Source: Oscillospiraceae bacterium (GTDB taxonomy: Bacteria; Bacillota; Clostridia; Oscillospirales; JAAYXM01). Taken from it: a DNA stretch of 64,000 bases. The notes beneath the pieces were generated by a model. The model saw nothing but the letters and a program-made list of their open reading frames with translations. It did no database searches and had not been told where the DNA came from. The stretch covers positions 62,001 through 126,000 of the forward strand of contig SVMJ01000003.1 in assembly GCA_015067485.1 (NCBI GenBank). The letters run 5' to 3'. This document shows positions 37,314 through 59,513 of the stretch, piece by piece (positions within the stretch are counted from its first letter, which is position 1; each line of letters starts with the position of its first letter). The position numbers and the translations under genes were made by a program.

Positions 37314-39428
37314 ATGGAACAAATTATTCAAATCTTGTGCAAAGAATTAAATCTCCATGCAAAACACGTGGAGAATGTCATCAATCTGATCGACGAAGGA
37401 AACACCATTCCGTTTATCGCGCGTTATCGAAAAGAACTCACCGGTTCCATGGATGACCAGGTGCTACGCGAATTGTCCGATCGTCTGAACTATCTGCGCA
37501 ATTTGGAAAAGCGCCGTGATGAGATCCGTACATCGATCACAGACCAAGGCGCAATGAACGACGAAATCGAAGCGATGCTGGTCTCCGCAGTTACGCTATC
37601 CGAACTGGAAGACGTATACCGTCCCTTCCGTCCGAAGCGCCGCACCCGTGCAACCATTGCGCGCGAGCACGGTTTAGAGCCGCTCTCCGAAGAGATTTTG
37701 AAGCAAACGTACAGCAAAGCGCAACTACTTACCCTTGCAGAAGAATATGTAAGCGAAAACGTAGCAGACGCAGAAATCGCACTCTCAGGCGCTTGCGACA
37801 TCATTGCAGAACAACTTTCCGATGATGCAAACGCAAGAAAATCCCTGCGCGCTCTTGCAATGCGTGAGGCGGTTCTGATCTCCCAAGCGGCACATGATGA
37901 AGATTCGGTTTATCGGATGTATTATGAATTCTCCGAACCCATCCAAAAACTTGCAGGACACCGCGTTTTGGCACTCAACCGCGGTGAACGCGAAGAGTTC
38001 TTAAAAGTGAAGATCACATTCCCCGATCCGCGTGCCGTCGGGATTTTATACACGTCCATTGCAACACTCAAATGTGCGTGCTGTGATTTGATCCGTGAAA
38101 TTTGTGAAGATGCATGGTCTCGACTCATTGCACCGTCTTTGGAGCGTGAGCTTCGTTCTTCTTTGACTGAGCGCGCAAGCACACAGGCAATCGGTTTATT
38201 CGCCGTAAATTTACAGCATCTTCTCATGCAACCGCCCATCAAGGGTCGTGTTGTCATGGGCGTTGACCCGGCTTATCGTACCGGATGCAAAATCGCGGTG
38301 GTCGATGCGACCGGGAAAGTATTGGATACCGCTGTCGTGTACCCCACACCACCGCAGTCCAAAACCGCCGAAGCAGAAGCGATTTTGATGAAACTTGTGA
38401 AGAAGCACAATGTTTCTCTCTTCTCCATCGGAAACGGTACCGCATCACGCGAAACAGAAGCATTCATCGCAGAACTCATCCGCAACTCCAATCTTCCACT
38501 TGCATACGTCGTGGTAAACGAAGCGGGCGCTTCGGTATATTCTGCATCCAAACTTGCCGCAGAAGAATTCCCGCAATTTGATGTTTCACTCCGTTCTGCG
38601 GTATCCATCGCGCGCCGCCTGCAAGACCCGCTTGCAGAACTGGTAAAAATCGAACCCAAGGCAATCGGCGTCGGTCAATACCAGCACGATATGCCGCAAA
38701 CGCAACTCGGTGAAGCGCTCAGCGGCGTGGTGGAATCTTGTGTCAACCGTGTCGGTGTTGACATCAACACCGCATCCCCGTCTTTGCTTTCGTATATCGC
38801 GGGGATTTCCGCAGCAGTTGCAAAAAACATTGTAACCTACCGCGAAGAAAATGGAATGTTCATATCAAGAGATCAGTTTAAGAAAGTTCCAAAATTGGGT
38901 CCAAAAGCCTTTGAACAGTGTGCAGGTTTCCTGCGCATTCCCGAAAGCAAAAATCCACTTGACCGTACAGGCGTGCATCCCGAATCCTATAAAACCGCAA
39001 CGCACCTGTTGAAACTTTGTGGCGATACTTCTCTTTCCGAGTATCTCGCAAAGCACAACGTGGAAGATCTTGCAAAAGAATGCGGTTGCGGTGTACCCAC
39101 ACTACTCGACATCGTCAAGGATCTGGAAAAACCGGGACGCGATCCGCGTGATGAACTCCCTGCACCCATTCTGCGTCAGGATGTGCTGGAAATCTCCGAT
39201 TTGAAACCCGGTATGCAACTGCTCGGCACGGTACGCAATGTCATTGACTTCGGTGCTTTCGTCGATATCGGTGTACACCAGGACGGTTTGGTCCACATCT
39301 CGCAAATCAGCGACAAATTTATCCGTCACCCGTCCGAGATCCTAAAAGTCGGCGATCAAGTAACCGTGTGGGTTTTGGAAGTGGATGTAACAAAAAAGCG
39401 CATCAGCCTTACGATGTGCAAGAAATAA
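37314..39428 (+). CDS. tex: Tex-family RNA-binding transcription accessory protein
   Basis: This 704-aa protein has the Tex N-terminal helical region, a YqgF/RNase H-like domain (GVDPAYRTGCKIAVVD), helix-hairpin-helix motifs (GVDINTASPSLLSYIAGI), and a C-terminal S1 domain (MQLLGTVRNVIDFGAFVDIG). GGAGG precedes the ATG. The following 294 bases are AT-rich and hold the array promoter, with no clear terminator after tex. Confidence 0.95.
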   Translation: MEQIIQILCKELNLHAKHVENVINLIDEGNTIPFIARYRKELTGSMDDQVLRELSDRLNYLRNLEKRRDEIRTSITDQGAMNDEIEAMLVSAVTLSELEDVYRPFRPKRRTRATIAREHGLEPLSEEILKQTYSKAQLLTLAEEYVSENVADAEIALSGACDIIAEQLSDDANARKSLRALAMREAVLISQAAHDEDSVYRMYYEFSEPIQKLAGHRVLALNRGEREEFLKVKITFPDPRAVGILYTSIATLKCACCDLIREICEDAWSRLIAPSLERELRSSLTERASTQAIGLFAVNLQHLLMQPPIKGRVVMGVDPAYRTGCKIAVVDATGKVLDTAVVYPTPPQSKTAEAEAILMKLVKKHNVSLFSIGNGTASRETEAFIAELIRNSNLPLAYVVVNEAGASVYSASKLAAEEFPQFDVSLRSAVSIARRLQDPLAELVKIEPKAIGVGQYQHDMPQTQLGEALSGVVESCVNRVGVDINTASPSLLSYIAGISAAVAKNIVTYREENGMFISRDQFKKVPKLGPKAFEQCAGFLRIPESKNPLDRTGVHPESYKTATHLLKLCGDTSLSEYLAKHNVEDLAKECGCGVPTLLDIVKDLEKPGRDPRDELPAPILRQDVLEISDLKPGMQLLGTVRNVIDFGAFVDIGVHQDGLVHISQISDKFIRHPSEILKVGDQVTVWVLEVDVTKKRISLTMCKK

Positions 39429-39458
39429 CTCTACTTACTGAACTAATCTCTCTAATTT

Positions 39459-39474
39459 CAGAGAATCCGTCAAC
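39459..39474 (+). promoter_or_regulatory. Distal box of paralogue 1 (AGAATCCGTCAA)
   Basis: CAGAGAATCCGTCAAC matches ATAGAATTCGTCAA at 42499-42512 and 44086-44099. Each copy lies about 113-141 bases upstream of a TTGCAM box, so the whole upstream region appears duplicated. Confidence 0.6.
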
Positions 39475-39598
39475 TTTTTACTTTTTAATTTTTCTTTCAT
39501 TTTGCAAATATTGTCGATTCAATAAATGAAAATAATTCATATTTTTAATTAAATCAAAACTTTTCATAGGTTTTCATTTTGAATTAAAAAATCGATAA

Positions 39599-39633
39599 TT
39601 TGCAAAGATGAAACCCTGCTCTTGTGGTATTCT
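39599..39633 (+). promoter_or_regulatory. Array-type promoter of paralogue 1
   Basis: ATTTGCAAAGAT carries TTGCAA at 39600-39605. An extended -10 TGG-TATTCT (39628-39633) follows after exactly 22 bases. The same layout and spacing recur before paralogues 3 and 4. Confidence 0.65.
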
Positions 39634-39722
39634 TATTAATAGTATTTAGTATGTTGGATACATCTGTGCCCCAACATAGTGTCACAAACAGTAAAAATAC
39701 ATATCTATATGGAGGTTCTATC

Positions 39723-41072
39723 ATGGCTCAGTTGGCATTGCTCGGCGGCCCGAAGGCTGTCACCAAATCCGTTGTCGGTGAAAACGGCATCATCAGTTTC
39801 AAACCGCACGTTTCTGCAAAGGCTCGTGCAAAGATCAACGAACTTCTCGATACCGACGGTATCTCCGAAGCTCCTATCGTAACCGAATTTGAAGCTCGTT
39901 TCAAAGCATACGTTGGCGCGAAGTACTCTTTGTGCCAGTGCAGCGGTACCGCTTCTATCCTTTCCGGTTTGTTTGCTTTGGGTGTTGGTCGCAACGATGA
40001 AGTTATCATTCCGTCTTTCACCTTCTTCGCAAGTTCTACCCCGGTTCTGACCTTGGGTGCTACCCCGGTCTTCGCAGACGTTGACCCGGATACCCATTGC
40101 TTGGATGCAAAATCCATTGAAGAAAAGATCACCCCGAAGACCAAGGCAATCGTTGTCGTTCACGTTTGGGGTAACCCGGCTGACATGGATGCTATCATGG
40201 CAGTTGCAAAGAAGCACAACGTTAAGGTTTTGGAAGACTGCTCTCACGCACACGGTGCTGAATACAAGGGCAAGAAGGTCGGTACCATCGGTGATGTCGG
40301 CTGCTTCTCTCTCCAGGCTTCCAAGCTTCTCTACGGCGGTGAATCCGGCATCATGGTCACCAACGACGAAGAAGTTTATCTCCGTGCAGCATCCTTCGGC
40401 TCTTACGAACGTTTGTGGCCGAACTATCTGGCACTCCAGAATATCTCGATCGACAATAAGTACGAAAAGTACGTTGAAACTGCTCTCGGCATGAAGCTCC
40501 GCGTTCAGCCGATGTGTATCGCAATCGCAAACGACGAACTCGATCGTTTGGATGAACGTAACGCAACCCGTGATGCAAACGGTGAATACCTTGACAAGCT
40601 CCTCAGCGACATCAAGTGCATCGCTCCGCTGAAGGTAAACGAAGGCGCAAAGCGTGTTTACGGTTACCACTATGTCCGTTACGACCATGAACTCAACCAT
40701 GAAATCCGCCGCGAAACTTTCCTCAAGGCTCTTGTTGCTGAAGGCGTTATCGTGGGTACTTGTGGTTACGGCAACCTGCATCGTGAGCCGTCCTTCACTC
40801 AGCTGAACGGCAACTGGCCGTACTGCTACCCGGATGGACCGGTCAACGAAGCTCCGTCTCTCCCGGTTTCCGAATACCTGCGTGAAGCAGCATTCATGGC
40901 TGCTCCGCGTTTCGAAGATCCGAACGGTAAGGAAGCAATCGAACAGTTTGCAGAAGCATATCACAAGGTTGTTGCTGCTACTGACGAACTGATCAAGTAC
41001 GAAAAGGAACACGCAGACGAACTTGCTGCTATGAAGCCGAAGAGCGGCCGTAGTATCAACATCGTAAAATAA
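39723..41072 (+). CDS. DegT/DnrJ/EryC1/StrS PLP aminotransferase, paralogue 1 of 5
   Basis: This 449-aa protein has the fold-type I sugar-aminotransferase pattern: CSGTAS (73-78), EDCSHAHGA (171-179, with the PLP-ring Asp D172), and the PLP lysine K201 in SLQASKL. A shared tail ends in GRSINIVK. It resembles StsC/AHBA-synthase-type members. Nearly all prolines are CCG, unlike the aro operon. The start at 39723 has GGAGG. The family aminates keto sugars or cyclitols, but no partner genes are nearby. Confidence 0.9.
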   Translation: MAQLALLGGPKAVTKSVVGENGIISFKPHVSAKARAKINELLDTDGISEAPIVTEFEARFKAYVGAKYSLCQCSGTASILSGLFALGVGRNDEVIIPSFTFFASSTPVLTLGATPVFADVDPDTHCLDAKSIEEKITPKTKAIVVVHVWGNPADMDAIMAVAKKHNVKVLEDCSHAHGAEYKGKKVGTIGDVGCFSLQASKLLYGGESGIMVTNDEEVYLRAASFGSYERLWPNYLALQNISIDNKYEKYVETALGMKLRVQPMCIAIANDELDRLDERNATRDANGEYLDKLLSDIKCIAPLKVNEGAKRVYGYHYVRYDHELNHEIRRETFLKALVAEGVIVGTCGYGNLHREPSFTQLNGNWPYCYPDGPVNEAPSLPVSEYLREAAFMAAPRFEDPNGKEAIEQFAEAYHKVVAATDELIKYEKEHADELAAMKPKSGRSINIVK

Positions 41073-41078
41073 AACCAT

Positions 41079-41116
41079 AAAAAGTCTGCGCGCTTCCCGC
41101 GCAGACTTTTTCTTTT
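41079..41116 (+). terminator. Terminator between paralogues 1 and 2
   Basis: An AAAAGTCTGCGCG/CGCGCAGACTTTTT hairpin. No promoter is seen before paralogue 2, so this may act as a partial attenuator between the two genes. Confidence 0.8.
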
Positions 41117-41142
41117 GAAAATACTAGCAGGAGGAATCTATC

Positions 41143-42492
41143 ATGTCCAAATTGGCTTTGCTCGGCGGTAGCCAGGCTATCACAAAATCCATCATCGGTG
41201 AAAACGGCATCCGTCCGTTTATCCCGAACGTAACCGATGCTGCAATGGAAACCATCAAGGAAATGCTGCAGTCCGGTCAGCTTTCCGTCAACCCGATCGT
41301 CCAGGAATTTGAAGAAAACTTCAAAAAGTATCTCGGTTGTAAGTTTGCGCTCTGCCAGTGCAGCGGTACCATGTCCATCCAGGCAGGTCTGTTCGGCATG
41401 GGGATCGGTCGCGGCGACGAAGTCATCGTCCCATCCTTCACCTTCTTTGCAACTTCAACACCTGTTTTGACCTTGGGTGCTATCCCGGTTTTCGCGGATG
41501 TGGACGCAGAGACCCACACTCTTTCTCCAAAGTCCATTGAAGAAAAGATCACCCCGAACACGAAAGCAATTATTTTGGTACATACTTGGGGCAACCCGGC
41601 TGACATGGACGGCATCATGGCAATTGCAAAGAAATATAATCTGAAAGTTTTGGAAGACTGCTCTCATGCACACGGCGCTGAATACAAAGGCAAGAAGGTC
41701 GGTACTTTCGGCGATGCTGCAGCATTCAGCTTCCAGGGTGAAAAGCTGATGGCAGCAGGTGAAGGCGGTATTTTGGTCACCAATGACGAAAACGTCATCT
41801 TCCGAGCAGCAGCACTCGGCTCCTACGAACGTTTGAGAGGTCAGAGTTTCTTTGCCGGCACCGACACTCCTGATGCCACCAACCTGCACAGTGCATACAG
41901 CGGCACCGCACTCGGCATGAAGCTCCGCCCGTTCCCGGTCTCCATGGCAATCGTAAACGAAGAACTCAAGCGTTTGGATGAACGCAACGCGGTTCGTAAC
42001 AAGAACGGCGAATATCTCGATCAGTTACTCGGCGACCTGCCCTGCTTCAAGCCGCTCAAGGTTTTGGAAGGTGCAAAGCGCGTATACGCATATCACTATG
42101 TCAACTATGACGAAAATCTCAACCACGGCATCATGCTCCAGACCGTCATGAAAGCATTGGCGGCTGAAGGTGCTGCAGTCGGCGGATGCGGCTACGGCGC
42201 TCTTCACACCTCCCCTGCATTTACCCAGCTTGACGGTAACTGGCCGAAGTGCTATCCGAACGCTCCGATCCAGGAAGCACCGATTCTCCCGGTTACGGAA
42301 CAGCTTCGCCTGACTTCCATCATGATTGCACCTCGTTTTGAAGATCCGAATCAGGAAGTTGTCGAACAGTATGCAGCAGCATATCACAAAGTTCTCTCTG
42401 CAACCGATGAATTGCTGCAATATCAGAAAGATCACTTGGCTGAACTCGAAGAGCTCAAACCGAAGACAGGTCGCAGCCGTAACATGATCTAA
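41143..42492 (+). CDS. DegT/DnrJ/EryC1/StrS PLP aminotransferase, paralogue 2 of 5
   Basis: This 449-aa protein aligns over its length with paralogue 1. D172 and K201 (SFQGEKL) are kept, and CSGTMS is at 73-78. It differs around the cofactor loop (GDAAAFSF instead of GDVGCFS) and has GESFFAG-type changes near 230-245, so substrate use may differ. AGGAGG lies upstream. It probably depends on readthrough from paralogue 1. Confidence 0.9.
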   Translation: MSKLALLGGSQAITKSIIGENGIRPFIPNVTDAAMETIKEMLQSGQLSVNPIVQEFEENFKKYLGCKFALCQCSGTMSIQAGLFGMGIGRGDEVIVPSFTFFATSTPVLTLGAIPVFADVDAETHTLSPKSIEEKITPNTKAIILVHTWGNPADMDGIMAIAKKYNLKVLEDCSHAHGAEYKGKKVGTFGDAAAFSFQGEKLMAAGEGGILVTNDENVIFRAAALGSYERLRGQSFFAGTDTPDATNLHSAYSGTALGMKLRPFPVSMAIVNEELKRLDERNAVRNKNGEYLDQLLGDLPCFKPLKVLEGAKRVYAYHYVNYDENLNHGIMLQTVMKALAAEGAAVGGCGYGALHTSPAFTQLDGNWPKCYPNAPIQEAPILPVTEQLRLTSIMIAPRFEDPNQEVVEQYAAAYHKVLSATDELLQYQKDHLAELEELKPKTGRSRNMI

Positions 42493-42498
42493 TCGACA

Positions 42499-42512
42499 AT
42501 AGAATTCGTCAA
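42499..42512 (+). promoter_or_regulatory. Distal box of paralogue 3
   Basis: ATAGAATTCGTCAA matches the box at 44086-44099 exactly and that at 39459 closely. It lies seven bases after the paralogue 2 stop. Confidence 0.6.
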
Positions 42513-42528
42513 ATCACGCAATTGCATA

Positions 42529-42573
42529 ACGGACGGTTTTTGTTAAAAAATTAACCAAACCGTCCGTTTTTTG
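42529..42573 (+). terminator. Terminator after paralogue 2
   Basis: ACGGACGGTTT pairs with AAACCGTCCGT around a second TTGTTAA/TTAACCA helix, then TTTT. Confidence 0.8.
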
Positions 42574-42623
42574 CATCATTCCCGCAAGAAATATCAACGA
42601 TTAACTCGAAAAAGATTATAGAA

Positions 42624-42658
42624 TTTGCACAGATTTACCAGAAAAAGTGTGATATTAT
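42624..42658 (+). promoter_or_regulatory. Array-type promoter of paralogue 3
   Basis: ATTTGCACAGAT carries TTGCAC at 42625-42630. After 22 bases there is an extended -10, TGA-TATTAT (42653-42658). Confidence 0.7.
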
Positions 42659-42692
42659 TATTCTATAAGTTCTAATTAGGGAGGATTTAATC

Positions 42693-44030
42693 ATGGCAAA
42701 ACTCGCATTGCTCGGCGGCGAAAAAGCATTTACCCTGTCTACTGCCAGCGTTTTCCCGCAGGTAAACGAAAAAGGTCGCGCAAGAGTCAATCAAATTATG
42801 GAAAGCGGTAACCTTTCCCAGGACAAGATCGTCGGCGAATTTGAAGAACGATTCAAAAATTATGTCGGCGCAAAGTATGCAGTCTGCCAGAGCAGCGGCA
42901 CCATGTCCATTCAAGCAGGTCTGTTCGGCATGGGCATTGGTCGCGGCGACGAAGTCATCGTTCCGTCTTATACCTTCTTCCTTTCGGTTTCCCCGATCGT
43001 TACATTGGGTGCAACTCCGGTATTTGCTGACGTTGACCTTGACACTCAGTTGATCGATCCGAAGTCCATCGAAGAAAAAATCACTCCGAAGACCAAGGCA
43101 ATCATCGTTGTTCACACTTGGGGTAACCCGTGTGATATGGATGCGATCATGGCAATCGCAAAAAAACACAATATCAAGGTTTTGGAAGACTGTTCCCATG
43201 CACACGGCGCTGAATACAAAGGCAAGAAAATCGGTACCATCGGCGATGTCGGTTGCTTTAGTTTCCAGGCTTCCAAGTTGATGTATGCAGGCGAAGGCGG
43301 CATCTTGGTCACCGATGATGAAGACATCTATTTCCGTACTGTTTCGCTCGGTACTTACGAGCGTTTGGCAGGTTACTACGGCTTTGCTGATTCTCCTGCT
43401 GCAAGCGAACGCAACCCGTATCGCAAGTACAAAGCATCCACTCTCGGCATGAAACTTCGCGCTCACCCGCTGGGCATTGCGATTGCTGACAGTATGCTGG
43501 ATGAACTGGATGAACGCAACAACATCCGCGACACCAACGGCAGATACTTCGATAAAGCAATCAGCGATATCGAATGCATTAAGCAGCTTAAGGTTTTAGA
43601 CGGCGCAAAACGTCTGTATTCTTACCACTATCTGCGTTATGTTCCGGAACTGAATCACGGCATTAGTTTGCACACTGTTTTGAAGGCACTCGCAGCTGAA
43701 GGTCTCATCGTTGGATCTTGCGGTTACGGTCGTTTGCATTTGGAACCGGCTTACACCCAGGTTGATGATAACTGGCCGCTCTGCTATCCGGATGCTCCGG
43801 AACGCAACCTTGGTACACTCCCGGTTTCCGAATACCTGAACACCACTGCATTTATGGCTGCACCGCGTTTTGAAAACCCGAACTGCACTGATGTTCTCGA
43901 TCAGTATGCTGCTGCATATCACAAAGTCTTCTCTGCAACCGAAGAACTTCTGCAGTACGAACAGGAACACGCAGAAGAAATCGCTGCAATCAAGGCAAAA
44001 ACCGGTAACAGCATCAACCTTGTCAGATAA
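42693..44030 (+). CDS. DegT/DnrJ/EryC1/StrS PLP aminotransferase, paralogue 3 of 5
   Basis: This 445-aa protein is six residues shorter at the N-terminus than the others. It keeps the PLP Asp (about D166, EDCSHAHGA) and Lys (about K195, SFQASKL), and has CQSSGT in place of CQCSGT. It has its own promoter, GGGAGG ribosome-binding site and terminator, so it forms a one-gene unit. Confidence 0.9.
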   Translation: MAKLALLGGEKAFTLSTASVFPQVNEKGRARVNQIMESGNLSQDKIVGEFEERFKNYVGAKYAVCQSSGTMSIQAGLFGMGIGRGDEVIVPSYTFFLSVSPIVTLGATPVFADVDLDTQLIDPKSIEEKITPKTKAIIVVHTWGNPCDMDAIMAIAKKHNIKVLEDCSHAHGAEYKGKKIGTIGDVGCFSFQASKLMYAGEGGILVTDDEDIYFRTVSLGTYERLAGYYGFADSPAASERNPYRKYKASTLGMKLRAHPLGIAIADSMLDELDERNNIRDTNGRYFDKAISDIECIKQLKVLDGAKRLYSYHYLRYVPELNHGISLHTVLKALAAEGLIVGSCGYGRLHLEPAYTQVDDNWPLCYPDAPERNLGTLPVSEYLNTTAFMAAPRFENPNCTDVLDQYAAAYHKVFSATEELLQYEQEHAEEIAAIKAKTGNSINLVR

Positions 44031-44042
44031 TTTTATTGGCAC

Positions 44043-44073
44043 AAAAAGACCGTTTTCACAAACGGTCTTTTTT
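44043..44073 (+). terminator. Terminator after paralogue 3
   Basis: An AAAAAGACCGTTT/AAACGGTCTTTTTT hairpin. Confidence 0.85.
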
Positions 44074-44085
44074 ATTTACCTTTTC

Positions 44086-44100
44086 ATAGAATTCGTCAAG
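44086..44100 (+). promoter_or_regulatory. Distal box of paralogue 4
   Basis: ATAGAATTCGTCAAG, followed by an AT-rich run as in the paralogue 1 upstream region. Confidence 0.6.
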
Positions 44101-44221
44101 TTTTAATTTTTTAGTTTGTAATTTTAATGCATATTTTATTTGTGTTTTTTATTGAGAAATTCTGTTTTTCAACATTATTTTCATTATTTTCAATTTCTCC
44201 ACCCAAAGAAATATGATAGGA

Positions 44222-44256
44222 TTTGCACAGATTTTGACAATGTTTTTTGATATGAT
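44222..44256 (+). promoter_or_regulatory. Array-type promoter of paralogue 4
   Basis: ATTTGCACAGAT carries TTGCAC at 44223-44228. After 22 bases there is an extended -10, TGA-TATGAT (44251-44256). Confidence 0.7.
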
Positions 44257-44308
44257 TATCGAAAGAAGTGTTTCATCATTCTTTATCAACAAATACGGAG
44301 GTATTCCA

Positions 44309-45664
44309 ATGTCTAAACTCGCATTGTTTGGCGGATCGAAGGCCGTAACCAAATCGCTGATCGGCGAAAACGGAATCGCAAGTTTCGTCCCGAAAATCAA
44401 CGACAAAGCACGCGCTACCATTCTCGATTTGCTTGACAAGGGTGAAATTTCCGAATCCCCTGTCGTAACCGATTTTGAAGCTCGTTTCAAAGACTATATC
44501 GGCACCCGTTTTGCACTCTGCCAGTGCAGCGGCTCCATGTCGATTTTTGCAGCTTTGTTTGGTTTGGGCATTGGTCGTGGCGATGAAGTCATCGTCCCCT
44601 CCTTCACTTTCCCGACCAGCGCTACCACCATTCTCCCGCTCGGCGCGGTTCCGGTCTTTGCAGACGTTGATCCGGATTCCCACTGTATTGATGCTGCAGA
44701 CATTGAAAAGCGTATCACTCCGAAGACCAAGGCGATCGTTGTTGTCCATGTTTGGGGTAACCCGTGTGATATGGACGCAATCATGGCGGTTGCAAAGAAG
44801 CACAATCTGAAAGTTTTGGAAGACTGTTCTCATGCACACGGTGCAACCTACAAAGGCAAGAAGGTCGGTTCCATCGGCGATGTCGGTTGCTTCAGCCTGC
44901 AGGGTTCCAAGTTGATGTACGGCGGTGAAGCAGGCATCCTGACCACCAACGATGAAGAAGTCTTCTTCCGTGCAGCTTCTCTTGGTTCCTACGAGCGTCT
45001 GTATGGCTATGGCTTCTATGCCGATTTGGAAAGCACCAAGTTGGAAAGCCCGTACAAGATCTACAAAGGTACAGCTCTCGGTATGAAACTCCGTGTTCAT
45101 CCGCTTGCCATCGCGATTGCAGACAGCGAACTCGATCATTTGGACGAACGCAACGTGATTCGTAATCGCAACGCAAATCATCTCAACGAATTGCTCAGTG
45201 ATATCTCCTGTATCAACAACGTCAAAGTCTACGATGGTGCAGAACGCGTCTTCGGCTATCACTATATGCGTTATGACCACGAACTCAACGGCGGTGTTCT
45301 CCGCGAAACCATTTTGAAAGCACTTGTTGCGGAAGGTGTTACTGTCGGTGCTTGCGGCTACGGCCACTTGCACGAAGATCCCACCTTCACCCAAGTCAAC
45401 GACAACTGGCCCAAGTGCTATCCGTACGGTGAAAAGCATGACGCGGTGTATCTCCCGATCACCTCGTATCTCCACGACACCGTCTTCATGGCAGCTCCCC
45501 GCTTTGAAGATGCTGATGGTTTTGAAGCAGTCGAGCAATATGCAGAAGCATATCACAAAGTCATCGCAGCAACCGATGAACTGCTCCGGTATGAAAAAGA
45601 TCATGCGGATGAACTGGTCGCAATGAGACCGAGAAGCGGACGTAGCATCAATATTGTGAAGTAA
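44309..45664 (+). CDS. DegT/DnrJ/EryC1/StrS PLP aminotransferase, paralogue 4 of 5
   Basis: This 451-aa protein keeps D172 and K201 (SLQGSKL). It differs in TFPTSATTILPLG, where paralogues 1 and 2 have TFFAxSTPVLTLG, a substrate-side loop. The ATG at 44309 has GGAGG upstream; the frame extends to 44213 through the promoter and is not used. The first half aligns most closely by eye with paralogue 1. Confidence 0.9.
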   Translation: MSKLALFGGSKAVTKSLIGENGIASFVPKINDKARATILDLLDKGEISESPVVTDFEARFKDYIGTRFALCQCSGSMSIFAALFGLGIGRGDEVIVPSFTFPTSATTILPLGAVPVFADVDPDSHCIDAADIEKRITPKTKAIVVVHVWGNPCDMDAIMAVAKKHNLKVLEDCSHAHGATYKGKKVGSIGDVGCFSLQGSKLMYGGEAGILTTNDEEVFFRAASLGSYERLYGYGFYADLESTKLESPYKIYKGTALGMKLRVHPLAIAIADSELDHLDERNVIRNRNANHLNELLSDISCINNVKVYDGAERVFGYHYMRYDHELNGGVLRETILKALVAEGVTVGACGYGHLHEDPTFTQVNDNWPKCYPYGEKHDAVYLPITSYLHDTVFMAAPRFEDADGFEAVEQYAEAYHKVIAATDELLRYEKDHADELVAMRPRSGRSINIVK

Positions 45665-45705
45665 ATTATCCACAGAGTGGATCATATAATCAGGAGGTTT
45701 TAATT

Positions 45706-47055
45706 ATGTCTAAACTCGCATTGCTCGGTGGTCAGCAGACCGTTACCGAAGATGTCCGCGGCGCGAACGGCAGATGGCCGTGGTATTCCTATGTTACTCC
45801 GGAAGGAAAAGCACTCGTCAACCAGATCATGGATGAACAGACTCTTTCCGAACATCACGTCATCACAGATTTTGAAGAAGCATTCCGCAATTATGTTGGT
45901 GCAAAGTACTCTCTCAGTTTCTGCACCGGTACTGCATCCATCATGACCGGTCTTTTCGGCATGGGCATCGGTCGCGGCGACGAAGTCATTGTTCCGTCCT
46001 ATACCTTCTTCGCAACCTGTACTCCTGTTATGGCACTTGGCGGTATCCCGGTATTTGCTGATGTCGATCTCGAAACCCGCACCCTGGATCCGGTAGACAT
46101 TGAACGCAAGATCACCCCGAAGACCAAGGCAATCGTTGTCGTCCATGTCCACGGTAACCCGGCAGACATGGATGCGATCATGGCAATCGCTAAGAAGCAT
46201 GATCTGAAGGTTTTGGAAGACTGCTCTCATGCACACGGCGCAAAATACAAAGGTAAGTATGTTGGTACAATCGGTCATGTAGGTTGCTTCAGCTTGCAGG
46301 CATCCAAACTCCTGTGGGGCGGCGAAGCGGGTATCATGGTCACCAATGACGAAAACATCTATGCCCGTACCGCTGCTCACTCTTCTTATGAACGTTTCTA
46401 TCCGGCATACTATGAAAAAGTCGGTCTCTCCCCGGATAACGATTACATCAAGTATGCAATCACCGGCTTGGCTTGCAAACTCCGTCCGCATCCGCTTGCA
46501 ATTGCAATCGCATATTGCGAACTGCCGCATTTGGATGAGCAGAACAAAATCCGCAACGCTCTCGGTAAGCGTTTGGATGACGGTATCGCCGATATCCCGT
46601 ACTTGCACCCCTTCAAGGTTTTGGACGGTGCAGAACGTATGAACAGTTATCATATGCTTCGCTACGATGCAGAAGACAACAACGGTGTATGGCGCGAAAC
46701 CTTCCTACGCGCACTCTCTGCGGAAGGCATCCAGGGTGGGTTGGATGGTTACGGCACTCTGCACAGACAGCCGGCATTCACCCAGCTTGACGGTAACTGG
46801 CCGAAGTGCTATCCGGATGGCGCGGTCAGAGATCTCGGTGATCTCCCGGTTTCCGAATACCTTGGTTCTGCATGTATCCTCGGCGCTCCGCGTTTTGAAG
46901 ATATGGACCGTGTGAAATGTATCGACCAGTACATTGAAGCATACCACAAGGTCGCAAATGCTACCGACGAACTTCTCAAGTATCAGAAGGATCACGAAGA
47001 AGAACTCGCTGCAATGCGTCCGAAGGGCGGTCGTACCATCAATCGCGTAAAGTAA
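45706..47055 (+). CDS. DegT/DnrJ/EryC1/StrS PLP aminotransferase, paralogue 5 of 5
   Basis: This 449-aa protein is the most divergent copy. The N-terminal loop reads NGRWPWYSYV, it has SFCTGT instead of CQCSGT, and GGLDGYG where the others have CGYG. D172 and K201 (SLQASKL) remain. It follows paralogue 4 by 41 bases without a promoter or strong terminator, so the two are co-transcribed. AGGAGG precedes the ATG. Confidence 0.9.
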   Translation: MSKLALLGGQQTVTEDVRGANGRWPWYSYVTPEGKALVNQIMDEQTLSEHHVITDFEEAFRNYVGAKYSLSFCTGTASIMTGLFGMGIGRGDEVIVPSYTFFATCTPVMALGGIPVFADVDLETRTLDPVDIERKITPKTKAIVVVHVHGNPADMDAIMAIAKKHDLKVLEDCSHAHGAKYKGKYVGTIGHVGCFSLQASKLLWGGEAGIMVTNDENIYARTAAHSSYERFYPAYYEKVGLSPDNDYIKYAITGLACKLRPHPLAIAIAYCELPHLDEQNKIRNALGKRLDDGIADIPYLHPFKVLDGAERMNSYHMLRYDAEDNNGVWRETFLRALSAEGIQGGLDGYGTLHRQPAFTQLDGNWPKCYPDGAVRDLGDLPVSEYLGSACILGAPRFEDMDRVKCIDQYIEAYHKVANATDELLKYQKDHEEELAAMRPKGGRTINRVK

Positions 47056-47066
47056 AAAGTACATAG

Positions 47067-47099
47067 AAAAACGGTGTCACAAATGTGACACCGTTTTTT
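47067..47099. terminator. Bidirectional terminator between paralogue 5 and gpsA
   Basis: An AAAAACGGTGTCACA/TGTGACACCGTTTTTT hairpin lies between convergent genes. Confidence 0.85.
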
Positions 47100-48105
47100 A
47101 CAACCAATCAACTTCGATCTCGGATTTTCCCGGGCGCGCCATCAGCTCAGCCATCGCCTGCATTGGGTCTTTCCCGCAATACAACACTTGATAGCACTGC
47201 TCGGTAATCGGCATTTCCACCTTGACTTGATCTGCCAGTTGTTTTCCCGCGTAGGTCGCGTAATAGCCTTCCACGACCGCTCCGATTTGCTTTAGCGAAT
47301 CTTCGGGCGAAACACCCTGCCCGATCAAAATCCCTGCACGGCGGTTGCGCGAGTGTTGGGATGTGCAGGTAACGATCAAATCACCCACACCTGCAAGACC
47401 TGCAAGGGTTTCGCGTTTGCCGCCAAGCACGATACAAAGTCGCGCCATCTCGGCAAGTCCACGCGTCATCAGTGCCGCCTTGGAATTATCTCCTAATCCA
47501 AGTCCGTCATTGATGCCCGCGGTGAGTGCTATGATGTTTTTGAGCGCACCTCCAAGTTCCACGCCCACAACATCCGAAGATGTGTAAACTCTAAAATTTG
47601 CGTTCATAAAAACGCGTTGGACGGTTTCTGCCGCGGTTTGATCTTCCGATGCGGAAATGATCGCGGTCGGAATTTCGCGCCCGACCTCTTCCGCATGCGA
47701 CGGTCCGGAGAGTGCCACAATGGGATATCCATCCCCCAATGAATCACGCAAAACCGATGTATAGCACTTTCCGCTTTCTCGGTCAATGCCTTTGGAAACG
47801 CTGACCACGATGGTTCCTTGTTTCAAATACGGTCGGACCTGCTTTGCAGTATCACGCACCGCAAAAGACGGAACTGCCATCACGAGAAGGTCTGCATCAC
47901 GTGCGAATGCAATCTCAGGTGAGAGTTTTAAGTTGTCCGGGAACTCCACACCCGGTAAGTGCTTTCGGTTTTCACGGTCTCGTTCGAGTTCTGTAATTTG
48001 GTCTTTACGATATGACCACAAGGTAACATCATGATCGTTTTTTGCCAGTAAAACCGCGAGTGCGGTTCCCCAGCCTCCGCTTCCGAAAACGGATATTTTC
48101 ATCAC
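47098..48105 (-). CDS. gpsA: Glycerol-3-phosphate dehydrogenase (NAD(P)+)
   Basis: This 335-aa protein makes sn-glycerol-3-phosphate for phospholipids. It has the Rossmann motif GSGGWGTALA, SKGI, and LGGALKNIIAL. It overlaps plsY by four bases; der-plsY-gpsA is a conserved order, and both products feed phospholipid synthesis. Confidence 0.96.
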   Translation of the reverse strand: MMKISVFGSGGWGTALAVLLAKNDHDVTLWSYRKDQITELERDRENRKHLPGVEFPDNLKLSPEIAFARDADLLVMAVPSFAVRDTAKQVRPYLKQGTIVVSVSKGIDRESGKCYTSVLRDSLGDGYPIVALSGPSHAEEVGREIPTAIISASEDQTAAETVQRVFMNANFRVYTSSDVVGVELGGALKNIIALTAGINDGLGLGDNSKAALMTRGLAEMARLCIVLGGKRETLAGLAGVGDLIVTCTSQHSRNRRAGILIGQGVSPEDSLKQIGAVVEGYYATYAGKQLADQVKVEMPITEQCYQVLYCGKDPMQAMAELMARPGKSEIEVDWL

Positions 48106-48743
48106 TTATCCCCTTCCGATTTGCTGCGATGGAAATAAAACTTCTTTTCATTATGCGCCAAAAGGCGTTTGATATTACTGCGATGCAAATAAATCGCACC
48201 ACCGCCCCAAAGCAAGGCAATCGCAAAATACAGCCAGTTTCCCGGATAAAAAATTAAGATGGTAACGGGGAACGCCGCTGCCGCCAAAATAGAGCCGAGC
48301 GACACAAATCGAGTCAGAAACACGGTAATTAAGAAAATGCTCAGGATGATCGCCAAACTGCGCGGGTCAAAGAGCATAAAAACTGCCGCAGATGTCAGAA
48401 TCCCCTTCCCGCCTCGTAACTTGAAATAAACCGGAAAAGCATGCCCTACAACCACAGAGAAGCCTGCGATCATAACCGGAAGTGATCCCATCACGCCATG
48501 TTCCGGGAAAAGTGCAACTGCAAACAGTGCGCCCAAAATCCCTTTGAGCATATCGCCCAACATGACAAGCAGCGTTTTCTTTCCGCCCATCACACGGAAT
48601 GCATTGGTACTGCCCGCGTTTCCGCTTCCGAAGTTTCGGATATCCTGCTTCAAAAACAGTTTGGAAACAATGATGGAGAAGTTAAGACTCCCAAGCAAAT
48701 ATCCGACAACGATGATAACCAAGTATTTCAAACCCATGGACAC
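48102..48743 (-). CDS. plsY: Acyl-phosphate:glycerol-3-phosphate acyltransferase
   Basis: This 213-aa membrane enzyme has about five to six helices. Family motifs are GSGNAGSTNAFR, GHAFPVYFKLRGGKG, and the GS-lining LLGSLNFS. It acts just before GpsA's product enters phosphatidic acid synthesis. Confidence 0.95.
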   Translation of the reverse strand: MSMGLKYLVIIVVGYLLGSLNFSIIVSKLFLKQDIRNFGSGNAGSTNAFRVMGGKKTLLVMLGDMLKGILGALFAVALFPEHGVMGSLPVMIAGFSVVVGHAFPVYFKLRGGKGILTSAAVFMLFDPRSLAIILSIFLITVFLTRFVSLGSILAAAAFPVTILIFYPGNWLYFAIALLWGGGAIYLHRSNIKRLLAHNEKKFYFHRSKSEGDK

Positions 48744-48745
48744 AG

Positions 48746-50065
48746 TTAATCCCCCTTTTGGCGAATTACAACACGAATCGGTGTGCCTTCCAAGCCAAAT
48801 ACGGCACGAATCTGATTTTCCAAATAACGCTGATAAGAGAAATGGAACAACTTCGCGTCGTTACAGAACATAACAAAGTTCGGCGGCTGGATACCCGTCT
48901 GTGTAATGTAATACACTTTCAGGCGCTTGCCACGGTCTGTCGGCGGCTGAGTACGCGCAGTCGCGTCCGCCAAAATGTTGTTGAGCATACCTGTCGTGAT
49001 ACGGATACGGCTCTGCTGGTAAACGTGGCAGATCAGTTCAAACAGTTTATGAACACGCTGACCTGTTTTTGCGGAGATGAACAGAATCGGTGCATAAGTC
49101 ATATAACTCAGATCCGCGCGGATCTTATCGGTCATCTTCTTCATGGTCTTGTCGTCTTTTTCGATCAAGTCCCACTTATTGACCACGATAATCGATGCTT
49201 TCCCCGCCTCATGTGCAAGCCCTGCGATTTTGGTATCTTGTTCGGTAACACCTTCCTGCGCATCGATCAAAATCAAACACACATCACTGCGCTCGATCGC
49301 CATATTCGCACGGAGTACCGAGAAGCGTTCGACTTCATCGTTGACTTTGGATTTACGGCGGATCCCCGCGGTATCAATGATCGTGAATTTCCCGTGTTCA
49401 TTTTCAAAATCCGAGTCCACCGCATCACGGGTGGTACCCGGGATATTGCTGACGATCACGCGCTCTTCGCCGAGAATCTGGTTGGTGAGCGAGCTTTTGC
49501 CCGCGTTCGGCTTTCCGATCAGCGCGATTTTGATACGCTCATCTTCCTCTTCGGAATCATCGATTTCGGGGAAGAGTGCAACACAGGCATCGAGCAAATC
49601 CCCCGTTCCATGCCCGTGCAGAGCAGAGACCGGCATCGGATCACCCAGACCCAAGTTATAAAACTCATAGAGTTCAGGGGGCGGATCTCCGACTTTATCC
49701 ACTTTATTGACTGCAAGCACGATCGGTTTTTTCGAGCGCAGCAACATATTAGCGACATCACGGTCTTCCGCCGTGACACCTGTTTTAATATCGCACAGCA
49801 TCACGATCACATCTGCATTGGAAATTGCAAGGATCGCCTGTTCGCGCATAAATTGCAAGATTTCGTTATCGGTGTTCGGTTCAATACCACCGGTATCGAC
49901 CAAGGAAAACACGGTTCCGCACCACTCGCAATCCGCATACAAACGGTCACGGGTGACGCCCGGGGTATCTTGAACAATGGAAAGCCGCTTGCCGACTAAC
50001 TTATTAAAAAACATGGACTTACCCACGTTGGGTCGTCCCACAATCGCGACTACCGGTTTCGACAT
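48746..50065 (-). CDS. der: Ribosome biogenesis GTPase Der
   Basis: This 439-aa protein has two tandem GTPase domains, GRPNVGKS (about 10-17) with DTGG, and GKPNAGKSS with DTAG, plus a KH-like C-terminal domain. It acts in 50S assembly. It overlaps the DUF512 gene by 16 bases. Confidence 0.96.
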   Translation of the reverse strand: MSKPVVAIVGRPNVGKSMFFNKLVGKRLSIVQDTPGVTRDRLYADCEWCGTVFSLVDTGGIEPNTDNEILQFMREQAILAISNADVIVMLCDIKTGVTAEDRDVANMLLRSKKPIVLAVNKVDKVGDPPPELYEFYNLGLGDPMPVSALHGHGTGDLLDACVALFPEIDDSEEEDERIKIALIGKPNAGKSSLTNQILGEERVIVSNIPGTTRDAVDSDFENEHGKFTIIDTAGIRRKSKVNDEVERFSVLRANMAIERSDVCLILIDAQEGVTEQDTKIAGLAHEAGKASIIVVNKWDLIEKDDKTMKKMTDKIRADLSYMTYAPILFISAKTGQRVHKLFELICHVYQQSRIRITTGMLNNILADATARTQPPTDRGKRLKVYYITQTGIQPPNFVMFCNDAKLFHFSYQRYLENQIRAVFGLEGTPIRVVIRQKGD

Positions 50066-54126: not shown

Positions 54127-55140
54127 ATGATCATCGTACTCAAAGGTGGGGCAACCCAAGAACAAGTAAGCGGTTTGGAGCAAGAACTGCAACAGCATCA
54201 ACTGACTGTGAACAAAATCGAAGGCGCCGAAACAACTGTTTTGGGACTGGTCGGTGATTCTTCCCGCGTGGATGTAGATTGGCTTCGCACAAACGAAGCG
54301 GTCGACCGCATCATCAAGGTCCAAGAACCGTTCAAACTCGCCAACCGCAAGTTCCATCCGAACAACTCTGTCATCAAAGCAGGAAATGTGGAGATCGGCG
54401 GTGAGAAAATCGTCGTGATGGCAGGTCCGTGCTCGGTGGAATCCGAAGATCAGATCCTTACTGCCGCAAAGGAAGTTTGCGCTTGCGGTGCAAGTATTTT
54501 ACGCGGCGGTGCATTCAAGCCCCGCACTTCCCCCTACGCATTCCAAGGTCTGCGCGGCGAGGGCCTGCTGCTTTTGAAACAGGCACGCGAGCTGACCGGG
54601 ATGCCCGTGATTTCGGAAATCACCAACCCGTTCTACCTTGAAATGTTCGTGGAATTCGTCGACATCATCCAGGTAGGCGCGCGCAATATGCAAAACTTCG
54701 AACTACTCAAGGAACTGGGGCACATCAAAAAACCCATCCTGCTCAAACGCGGTTTTTCCAATACCATCGAAGAACTCCTGATGAGCGCGGAATATATCAT
54801 GTCTTCGGGAAACCCCAACGTGATTTTATGTGAACGCGGCATCCGCACCTTTGAAACATACACACGCAACACATTAGACATCAGCGCGATCCCCGCACTC
54901 AAGCGCGAAAGCCATCTCCCGGTCGTCATCGACCCGAGCCACGCATCCGGGCTACCCTGGATGGTGGAACCCTTGTCTCTTGCCGCGATCGCAGCAGGCG
55001 CGGACGGACTCATCATTGAAGTCCATCCTTCCCCGAAAAACGCGCGTTGCGACGGAGCGCAATCTTTGACCCCGAATTTACTGGGTCAGATTATGGACAA
55101 ATCCCGTGCGGTCGCAAATGCGATCGGACGTACACTCTGA
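54127..55140 (+). CDS. aroF: DAHP synthase (type Ib), copy 1
   Basis: This 337-aa protein condenses PEP and erythrose-4-phosphate. It has an N-terminal ferredoxin-like regulatory segment (about 1-65), AGPCSVE, GGAFKPRTSPYAFQG, and CERGIRTFE. The start at 54127 follows GGAG. A second paralogue is at 58482. Confidence 0.95.
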   Translation: MIIVLKGGATQEQVSGLEQELQQHQLTVNKIEGAETTVLGLVGDSSRVDVDWLRTNEAVDRIIKVQEPFKLANRKFHPNNSVIKAGNVEIGGEKIVVMAGPCSVESEDQILTAAKEVCACGASILRGGAFKPRTSPYAFQGLRGEGLLLLKQARELTGMPVISEITNPFYLEMFVEFVDIIQVGARNMQNFELLKELGHIKKPILLKRGFSNTIEELLMSAEYIMSSGNPNVILCERGIRTFETYTRNTLDISAIPALKRESHLPVVIDPSHASGLPWMVEPLSLAAIAAGADGLIIEVHPSPKNARCDGAQSLTPNLLGQIMDKSRAVANAIGRTL

Positions 55141-58481: not shown

Positions 58482-59513
58482 ATGATTGTCGTAATGAAAC
58501 CCCATGCTCAAAAAGAGCAAATCGACAGGGTATGTGATACTATCCGCTCGCGTGGGCTTGACTGCCATGTTTCCATCGGCTCCCATACCACCATTATCGG
58601 TGTGATCGGTGATAAAACGAAACTTATTGACGTTCAGTTTGCTGCGCTTTCAGGCGTTCGCGAACTCATTCCTGTTTCCGAGCCGTACAAACTCGTCGGT
58701 CGCACGGGACATCCTGAAAACACGGTCATCGACATCGGTGATGCACAAATTGGCGCAAATGAACTGATGATCGCAGCAGGTCCGTGTGCGGTGGAAGATT
58801 ATGAAACCATGCATGAGACAGCACACAAACTTCGCGCGCAAAATATCAAGTTCCTGCGTGGCGGTGCATATAAACCGCGCACTTCTCCCTATTCGTTCCA
58901 AGGACTTGAAGAAGAGGGTCTCAAGATTCTTGCAAAGGTCGCAGAAGAGACCGGGATGAAAGTTGTTACCGAAGCAATCGATGACGATTCCATTGCTCGT
59001 GTCGCGTACTATGCGGACATCGTCCAGATCGGTGCGCGCAATATGCAGAACTTCCATCTGCTCCGCAAAGCGGGACAATGTGGAAAACCCGTCATCTTAA
59101 AGCGCGGACTTTCCTCTACTGTGGAAGAATGGCTGAACGCCGCGGAATATATCATGAGTTCGGGAAACGCAAACGTCATCTTATGCGAACGCGGTATCCG
59201 CACCTTTGAAACCGCAACTCGCAACACATTGGATATCAGCGCGGTTCCTGTGCTCAAAGCAAAAACCCATCTTCCCGTCATCATTGACCCCAGCCACGCG
59301 GCAGGGGCACGAGCATATATTGAATCCCTTTCCATGTGCGCAATCGCGGCAGGGGCTGACGGACTCATCATTGAAGTTCATCCGCGCCCTGACACGGCAA
59401 AATCCGATGCCGCACAAACCATCAGCATTGACTGCTTCGCCGAACTTTGCAAAAAGATTTCGGAACTTTCCAAAATCATGCATCGTACCATGCCCGGAGA
59501 TGATAACAAATGA
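58482..59513 (+). CDS. aroF: DAHP synthase (type Ib), copy 2
   Basis: This 343-aa paralogue has AGPCAVE, GGAYKPRTSPYSFQG and CERGIRTFE. It is clearly diverged from copy 1. A second in-operon copy could differ in feedback sensitivity. Confidence 0.94.
   Translation: MIVVMKPHAQKEQIDRVCDTIRSRGLDCHVSIGSHTTIIGVIGDKTKLIDVQFAALSGVRELIPVSEPYKLVGRTGHPENTVIDIGDAQIGANELMIAAGPCAVEDYETMHETAHKLRAQNIKFLRGGAYKPRTSPYSFQGLEEEGLKILAKVAEETGMKVVTEAIDDDSIARVAYYADIVQIGARNMQNFHLLRKAGQCGKPVILKRGLSSTVEEWLNAAEYIMSSGNANVILCERGIRTFETATRNTLDISAVPVLKAKTHLPVIIDPSHAAGARAYIESLSMCAIAAGADGLIIEVHPRPDTAKSDAAQTISIDCFAELCKKISELSKIMHRTMPGDDNK

Follow-up and report, generated by a model that had tools for sequence, protein, structure and literature searches.

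A tandem array of five diverged DegT-family aminotransferase genes in an Oscillospiraceae bacterium, with a possible role in carbohydrate metabolism

Five complete open reading frames (ORFs) of the DegT/DnrJ/EryC1/StrS family were found head to tail on the + strand, at 39723-47055, in a 64,000-nucleotide stretch of contig SVMJ01000003.1 from an Oscillospiraceae bacterium (this whole stretch is called the window below). The best explanation, to which an even chance is given, is that the genes encode diversified pyridoxal 5'-phosphate (PLP) dependent aminotransferases acting on keto-/amino-sugars or cyclitols together with unlinked dehydrogenases. The enzyme family is known, but the subfamily of the array is uncharacterised and its expansion unusual. 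The five genes are as follows.

39723..41072, + strand: DegT copy 1 (P0001), 449 amino acids, highest codon adaptation in the window
41143..42492, + strand: DegT copy 2 (P0002), 449 amino acids, Glu200 adjoining the Schiff-base Lys
42693..44030, + strand: DegT copy 3 (P0003), 445 amino acids
44309..45664, + strand: DegT copy 4 (P0004), 451 amino acids, TFP replacing TFF/TFW
45706..47055, + strand: DegT copy 5 (P0005), 449 amino acids, most divergent, VHVHG replacing VHxWG

All five proteins matched PF01041 with 264-299 bits against a cut-off of 19.8 (E<=1e-78) in a whole-genome profile scan, and the assignment of copies 1 and 5 was confirmed by a second profile check. Pairwise identity among the copies is 54-68%. 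The ORFs and profile matches agree with a preliminary description of this DNA, which had reported five intact paralogues of 445-451 amino acids in a row on one strand, flanked by tex and gpsA and with no sugar-nucleotide genes alongside. The neighbourhood was also as described: tex (37314-39428, + strand) lies upstream and gpsA (47098-48102, - strand) downstream, the latter as part of gpsA-plsY-der (47098-50065, - strand; these flanking genes were named by eye). No nucleotidyltransferase, dehydratase or glycosyltransferase gene was present beside the array, where tex, gpsA, plsY and der are found instead. Two antisense ORFs on the - strand, at 39705-41078 (457 amino acids) and 44276-45685 (469 amino acids), mirror copies 1 and 4. 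Homology and codon usage identify the + strand as the coding one, and the antisense ORFs look like by-products of codon bias.

The residues needed for PLP chemistry are present in every copy. The Schiff-base Lys201 and the Asp172 that contacts N1 of PLP are invariant, as the preliminary description had stated, and no copy has lost the G-[TS] phosphate turn or Ser196. An AlphaFold2 model, made for copy 1 only from 34 sequences, had a predicted local distance difference test score of 92.0 and a predicted template modelling score of 0.92. Its top structural matches were DegT aminotransferases or dehydrases of the DegT fold, and the best full-length match found with Foldseek was Fic25. Perosamine synthase, sugar transaminases and others aligned to the model at Z 40-45 in VIA-align; the fold therefore does not discriminate substrate. 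Two residues set the subfamily apart from most other DegT members: it has His175 where most have Gln, and residue 258 (copy 1 numbering) is Lys in all array proteins, at the position of the Asn of GxNxR in most related DegT structures.

The copies differ from each other mainly on what would be the substrate side. The Trp of the TFW motif (Trp102), present in single-copy orthologues, is lost in the array clade and reads F/F/F/P/F in copies 1-5. Compared with the orthologues, the clade also has a longer loop after the conserved YER motif and an altered 360-370 region. The variable residue of GYGxLH is N/A/R/H/T across copies 1-5, position 149 is His in copy 5 but Trp in the remaining copies and in the orthologues, and copy 2 has E200 beside the catalytic Lys. 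The most diverged segments are those named earlier, namely the N-terminal loop, the TFF/TFP loop and residues of about 220-250, and the residues of the substrate loops are not nearly identical between copies. From their place in family motifs the variant residues are presumed to touch substrate, and diversification of the five copies in substrate is suggested.

Phylogeny places the expansion in the host lineage. The five copies grouped in a single clade, supported at 100/100, when 34 proteins were placed in a maximum-likelihood tree. An array-type gene is single in eight other genomes (G002, G003, G008, G011, G090, G093, G173 and G174; 480-604 bits), and a ninth single copy lies on a contig of a metagenome-assembled genome (L009). 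In G003, of the same family, the one orthologue is about 54-57% identical to copy 1 and occupies the position of the array, in the order RNase J (-), tex (+), DegT (+). On this comparison the array is the product of tandem duplication, within the host lineage, of a single gene behind tex, and the clade and the G003 position bear out the earlier proposal of a lineage-specific duplication. When 394 genomes of the order were scanned, no other genome had two or more array-type genes, and 391 genomes drawn from the class added no array-type gene at that score level, so that the array is not a common one in the genomes scanned. These large scans scored the best four candidates per genome; a second array-type copy would therefore have shown up. 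The five-copy, privately regulated and strongly codon-adapted array appears to be unique among the genomes searched.

Synonymous divergence (dS) between copies is 1.3-2.0 and the ratio of nonsynonymous to synonymous divergence (dN/dS) is 0.14-0.27, and the duplications are therefore old, with purifying selection on every copy. Whole-gene conversion was rejected, as sliding synonymous divergence showed local dips only and no homogenised copy. Dating of the duplications through G001, the only genome of the same genus, was abandoned because RNase J, tex and gpsA have no good match there; G001 (77% complete) appears to miss the region, and its lack of the array therefore says nothing. A mobile or phage origin was also rejected, the DegT relatives in viral contigs being only distant (25-39% identity). 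In two genomes of a neighbouring genus, more distantly related DegT genes occur as tandem triples, at G005:C92 (L036, 2432-6774) and G006:C44 (L037, 7344-11667), both adjoining large, apparently secreted proteins. These triples are independent of the array, and tandem growth of such genes has therefore occurred at least two times in the family.

The surroundings of single-copy relatives give an indication of pathway. A Gfo/Idh/MocA dehydrogenase gene lies beside or near the DegT orthologue in G011, G008, G093, G173 and L009, and Amidohydro_2 proteins are encoded near it in G008, G173 and L009. The G008 locus also encodes UxuA, a short-chain dehydrogenase/reductase (SDR), a PfkB kinase, a xylose-isomerase-like TIM barrel and an Ldh_2 dehydrogenase. 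Beyond the order, proteins that match over their full length at 32-37% identity were found in Azospirillum/Rhizobium and in a haloarchaeon. On Azospirillum/Rhizobium plasmids the DegT gene shares operons with genes for altronate dehydratase and for dihydrodipicolinate-synthase-like, shikimate-dehydrogenase-like and aldehyde dehydrogenase proteins; the haloarchaeal operon contains TIM-barrel, amidohydrolase and sulfatase genes. Where the neighbours of relatives are informative, they are genes of sugar or sugar-acid breakdown and not of nucleotide-sugar synthesis. The amino-sugar or cyclitol synthesis suggested in the preliminary description is consequently not favoured.

In the host genome (1.37 Mb on 21 contigs; completeness 83%) no Gfo/Idh dehydrogenase gene is linked to the array, in contrast to the five relatives. 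The Gfo/Idh proteins encoded next to the orthologues of G011 (55% identity) and G008 (57%) are, however, reciprocal best matches, judged among the eight Gfo/Idh proteins found, of a host protein on another contig (G000:C10:8189-9256). That gene adjoins one for an AP_endonuc_2 TIM barrel (xylose-isomerase-like). This barrel shares 46% identity with the one encoded directly behind a DegT gene in G005. The Gfo/Idh of G093 matches a host Gfo/Idh on C12 with 43% identity. The earlier claim that the array has no pathway partners thus holds locally but is not supported genome-wide.

Codon usage points to strong expression. Adaptation was measured against the codons of the host's own ribosomal proteins, and the five copies took ranks 1-5 of the 50 window genes, with values of 0.65-0.78 against 0.56 for number 6. 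They ranked 3, 17, 28, 33 and 34 among 191 genes sampled from the host genome, a sample biased towards the surroundings of the host Gfo/Idh genes; copy 1, at rank 3, stands alongside an EF-Tu fragment. The host Gfo/Idh genes are themselves highly codon-adapted (Mann-Whitney U test, p=0.00016 against the rest of the sample drawn around them) and also rank 1-4 inside their own surroundings. The effective codon number of the array is much lower than that of the other genes, and its GC content at third codon positions resembles theirs and does not explain the codon bias. Together with Shine-Dalgarno sequences of the GGAGG type upstream of all five copies, this is in keeping with the strong ribosome-binding sites and high expression expected from the preliminary description; the array is probably highly expressed.

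The intergenic regions contain a recurring promoter-like module and several hairpins.

39429..39722, + strand: region upstream of copy 1, with the promoter module and a further TTTGCAAATAT at 39501
39598-39609, + strand: promoter module of copy 1, ATTTGCAAAGAT, with the extended -10 TGG-TATTCT 18 nt further
42623..42658, + strand: promoter module of copy 3, ATTTGCACAGAT-N18-TATTAT
44221..44256, + strand: promoter module of copy 4, ATTTGCACAGAT-N18-TATGAT
41079..41111, + strand: predicted intrinsic terminator between copies 1 and 2, a palindromic hairpin with a T-tail
42528..42573, + strand: terminator-like hairpin behind copy 2, a perfect 12-bp stem plus T-run
44043..44072, + strand: predicted intrinsic terminator behind copy 3, a hairpin with a T-run
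47068..47097, no strand assigned: hairpin between copy 5 and the convergent gpsA, a probable shared terminator

The module consists of the 12-base motif ATTTGCA[AC]AGAT, exactly 18 bases and an extended -10 (TGN-TATNNT), and precedes copies 1, 3 and 4. The 12-base motif matched three times in the window against 0.03 expected. No regulon beyond the array was indicated in the host assembly, where the sole other match falls inside a coding gene, and the motif is absent from the relatives' loci compared. Because the copy 4 module lies at 44221-44256, the start of this copy was placed at 44309 and not at the first ATG of the frame (44213). Hairpins with T-runs lie behind copies 1, 2, 3 and 5. Single terminator-like matches in the array region are no rarer in shuffled sequence, and the terminator call therefore rests on the long perfect stems and their position after stop codons. 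From these elements the array looks like several units under one promoter type and not like one plain operon. Read-through from the upstream neighbour would probably be needed for copy 2, which starts 31 bp after a hairpin, and for copy 5, which follows copy 4 at a distance of 41 bp.

In the mechanism that fits these observations, all five copies would be active PLP aminotransferases of fold type I, belonging to one uncharacterised DegT subfamily. Each would pass an amino group between glutamate or glutamine on one side and a ring ketone on the other, the ketone being that of a sugar, a sugar acid or a cyclitol. By analogy with NtdC/NtdA and glucose 6-phosphate, Gfo/Idh/MocA dehydrogenases from other loci of the genome may produce or consume this ketone, the unlinked Gfo/Idh on C10 being a candidate partner. 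With a shared catalytic core and differing substrate-side loops, the copies would most likely cover several related substrates. The setting may be an abundantly expressed carbohydrate pathway, catabolic more likely than biosynthetic, with a presumed direction and presumed substrates. Breakdown or nitrogen shuttling is favoured over the production of surface sugars because the array is strongly codon-adapted and its relatives stand among catabolic genes. A previously undescribed catabolic system, in which a very abundant, diversified DegT set and the unlinked Gfo/Idh dehydrogenases remove or shuttle the amino groups of several amino sugars or cyclitols and so contribute to the central carbon and nitrogen supply of a small-genome anaerobe, is proposed tentatively and is itself on the unlikely side.

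Several points weigh against this explanation. The orthologues in G003, G002, G090 and G174 have no sugar genes alongside, and codon bias is a mere proxy for expression. No array member reached any curated NCBIfam subfamily model in the profile search, the best score being 190 bits where the cut-off is 423.5. According to its PDB title, Fic25, which the model matches best over the full length, binds a dihydroxylysine-type adduct and not a sugar. The host assembly, finally, is only 83% complete. The most probable of the rivals, though still rather unlikely, is that the enzymes are biosynthetic nucleoside diphosphate (NDP) sugar or cyclitol aminotransferases that provide several amino sugars to be built into a surface polymer or small molecule, the remaining pathway genes being unlinked. 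Characterised members of the DegT family are mostly of this biosynthetic kind, and among the top PDB hits by sequence are perosamine synthase and the aminotransferases for scyllo-inosose and 2-deoxy-scyllo-inosose. The array members, however, stay below the curated NDP-sugar equivalogs (PseC, ArnB, DesI, WecE/RffA; best 190 bits against cut-offs of 375-650), and the informative neighbours of relatives are catabolic. The host moreover has four further clear DegT genes, one of which, with ordinary codon usage, sits in a separate nucleotide-sugar/polysaccharide cluster on C11.

Amplification for dosage, in which five copies of one function raise the amount of enzyme and the loop differences are neutral drift, is improbable. 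It would account for the codon adaptation, strong ribosome-binding sites and purifying selection of all five copies and for the promoter type common to three of them, but not readily for an identity of just 54-68%, a dS near saturation without whole-gene homogenisation, and the substrate-side differences at residues 102, 149 and 200 and in GYGxLH. DegT active sites lie at the dimer interface and are built from two subunits, so mixed dimers or oligomers could give many enzyme combinations from five genes. The similarity of the copies would allow them to pair, and one promoter type is common to three of them; nevertheless, each copy has the full set of catalytic residues and the terminators between units make a strict stoichiometry unlikely, and this reading is very unlikely. 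Least probable of all is a subfamily that has left transamination and works as a PLP-dependent dehydratase, epimerase or lyase on the DegT fold. The match to Fic25, which comes from an antibiotic pathway, and the unusual His175 and Lys258 would be compatible with such a change. In the ColD/E1 dehydrases, however, His stands in place of the Schiff-base Lys (PDB titles of dehydrase structures list H188K and H220K mutants); the array proteins keep the Lys, and pairing with Gfo/Idh fits transamination.

Other observations concern the host genome and the rest of the window. A search of the host assembly for 16S rRNA gave no match. The host DegT gene on C6 belongs to a cluster (L048 13447-17343) in the order Gfo/Idh - amidohydrolase - DegT - amidohydrolase; the G173 cluster (L079), which has an array-type DegT, partly matches it. 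A very codon-adapted block on host C5 (L105 6829-13061) encodes a Gfo/Idh, a protein that combines dihydroorotate-dehydrogenase and dihydropyrimidine-dehydrogenase-like domains, an SDR and an Amidohydro_3 protein, and suggests a strongly expressed breakdown pathway. In the window, a T-box leader (RF00230, 53816-54080, 110.7 bits) precedes an aromatic amino-acid operon that starts at 54127 and contains two DAHP (3-deoxy-D-arabino-heptulosonate 7-phosphate) synthase-like ORFs (54127-55140 and 58482-59513, named by eye). This T-box, far downstream, is the sole Rfam match in 31-55 kb, and a cis-regulatory RNA on the array was rejected. A link of the array to 3-amino-5-hydroxybenzoate or aminoshikimate through this shikimate operon, 7 kb downstream, was set aside, as the operon is not adjacent and has its own T-box.

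DegT aminotransferases have been studied chiefly as single biosynthetic enzymes. A five-fold, codon-adapted and diversified set in a 1.37 Mb genome, together with relatives located in operons for sugar breakdown, suggests that a widespread subfamily, whose entries in public records read 'DegT family aminotransferase' without a function, has a role still to be assigned. As five natural variants of one scaffold, the copies also offer material for mapping substrate specificity.

Among known systems, Fic25 of Streptomyces ficellus (8gyh/8gyi/8gyj) is colinear with residues 2-432 of the model, N- and C-terminal extensions included (Z 42, about 29% identity). Unlike the array proteins, it binds an N2-acetyl-DADH adduct, where we take DADH to be of the dihydroxylysine type, belongs to an antibiotic pathway and keeps the Asn of GxNxR. 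GDP-perosamine synthase, PseC, ArnB, WbpE and QdtB share the fold (Z 40-45) but act on nucleotide sugars, and the array lies far below the NCBIfam cut-offs compared. L-glutamine:2-deoxy-scyllo-inosose aminotransferases of the BtrR/RbmB type have the same fold and belong to the top PDB hits by sequence (E 1e-50 to 1e-63), but they are only about 30% identical, serve antibiotic biosynthesis and are without the array-type loops. The uncharacterised Azospirillum/Rhizobium plasmid proteins match the array over their full length (32-34% identity); unlike the array, they are single copies inside sugar-acid operons. NtdC/NtdA is a pair of glucose-6-phosphate 3-dehydrogenase and 3-oxo-glucose-6-phosphate aminotransferase (PMC8788734). 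NtdA/KabA with NtdC/KabC differ from the array in their low similarity (133 bits by profile), their biosynthetic kanosamine operon and their one copy each, but combine a DegT enzyme with a dehydrogenase, a pairing also seen in the relatives of the array.

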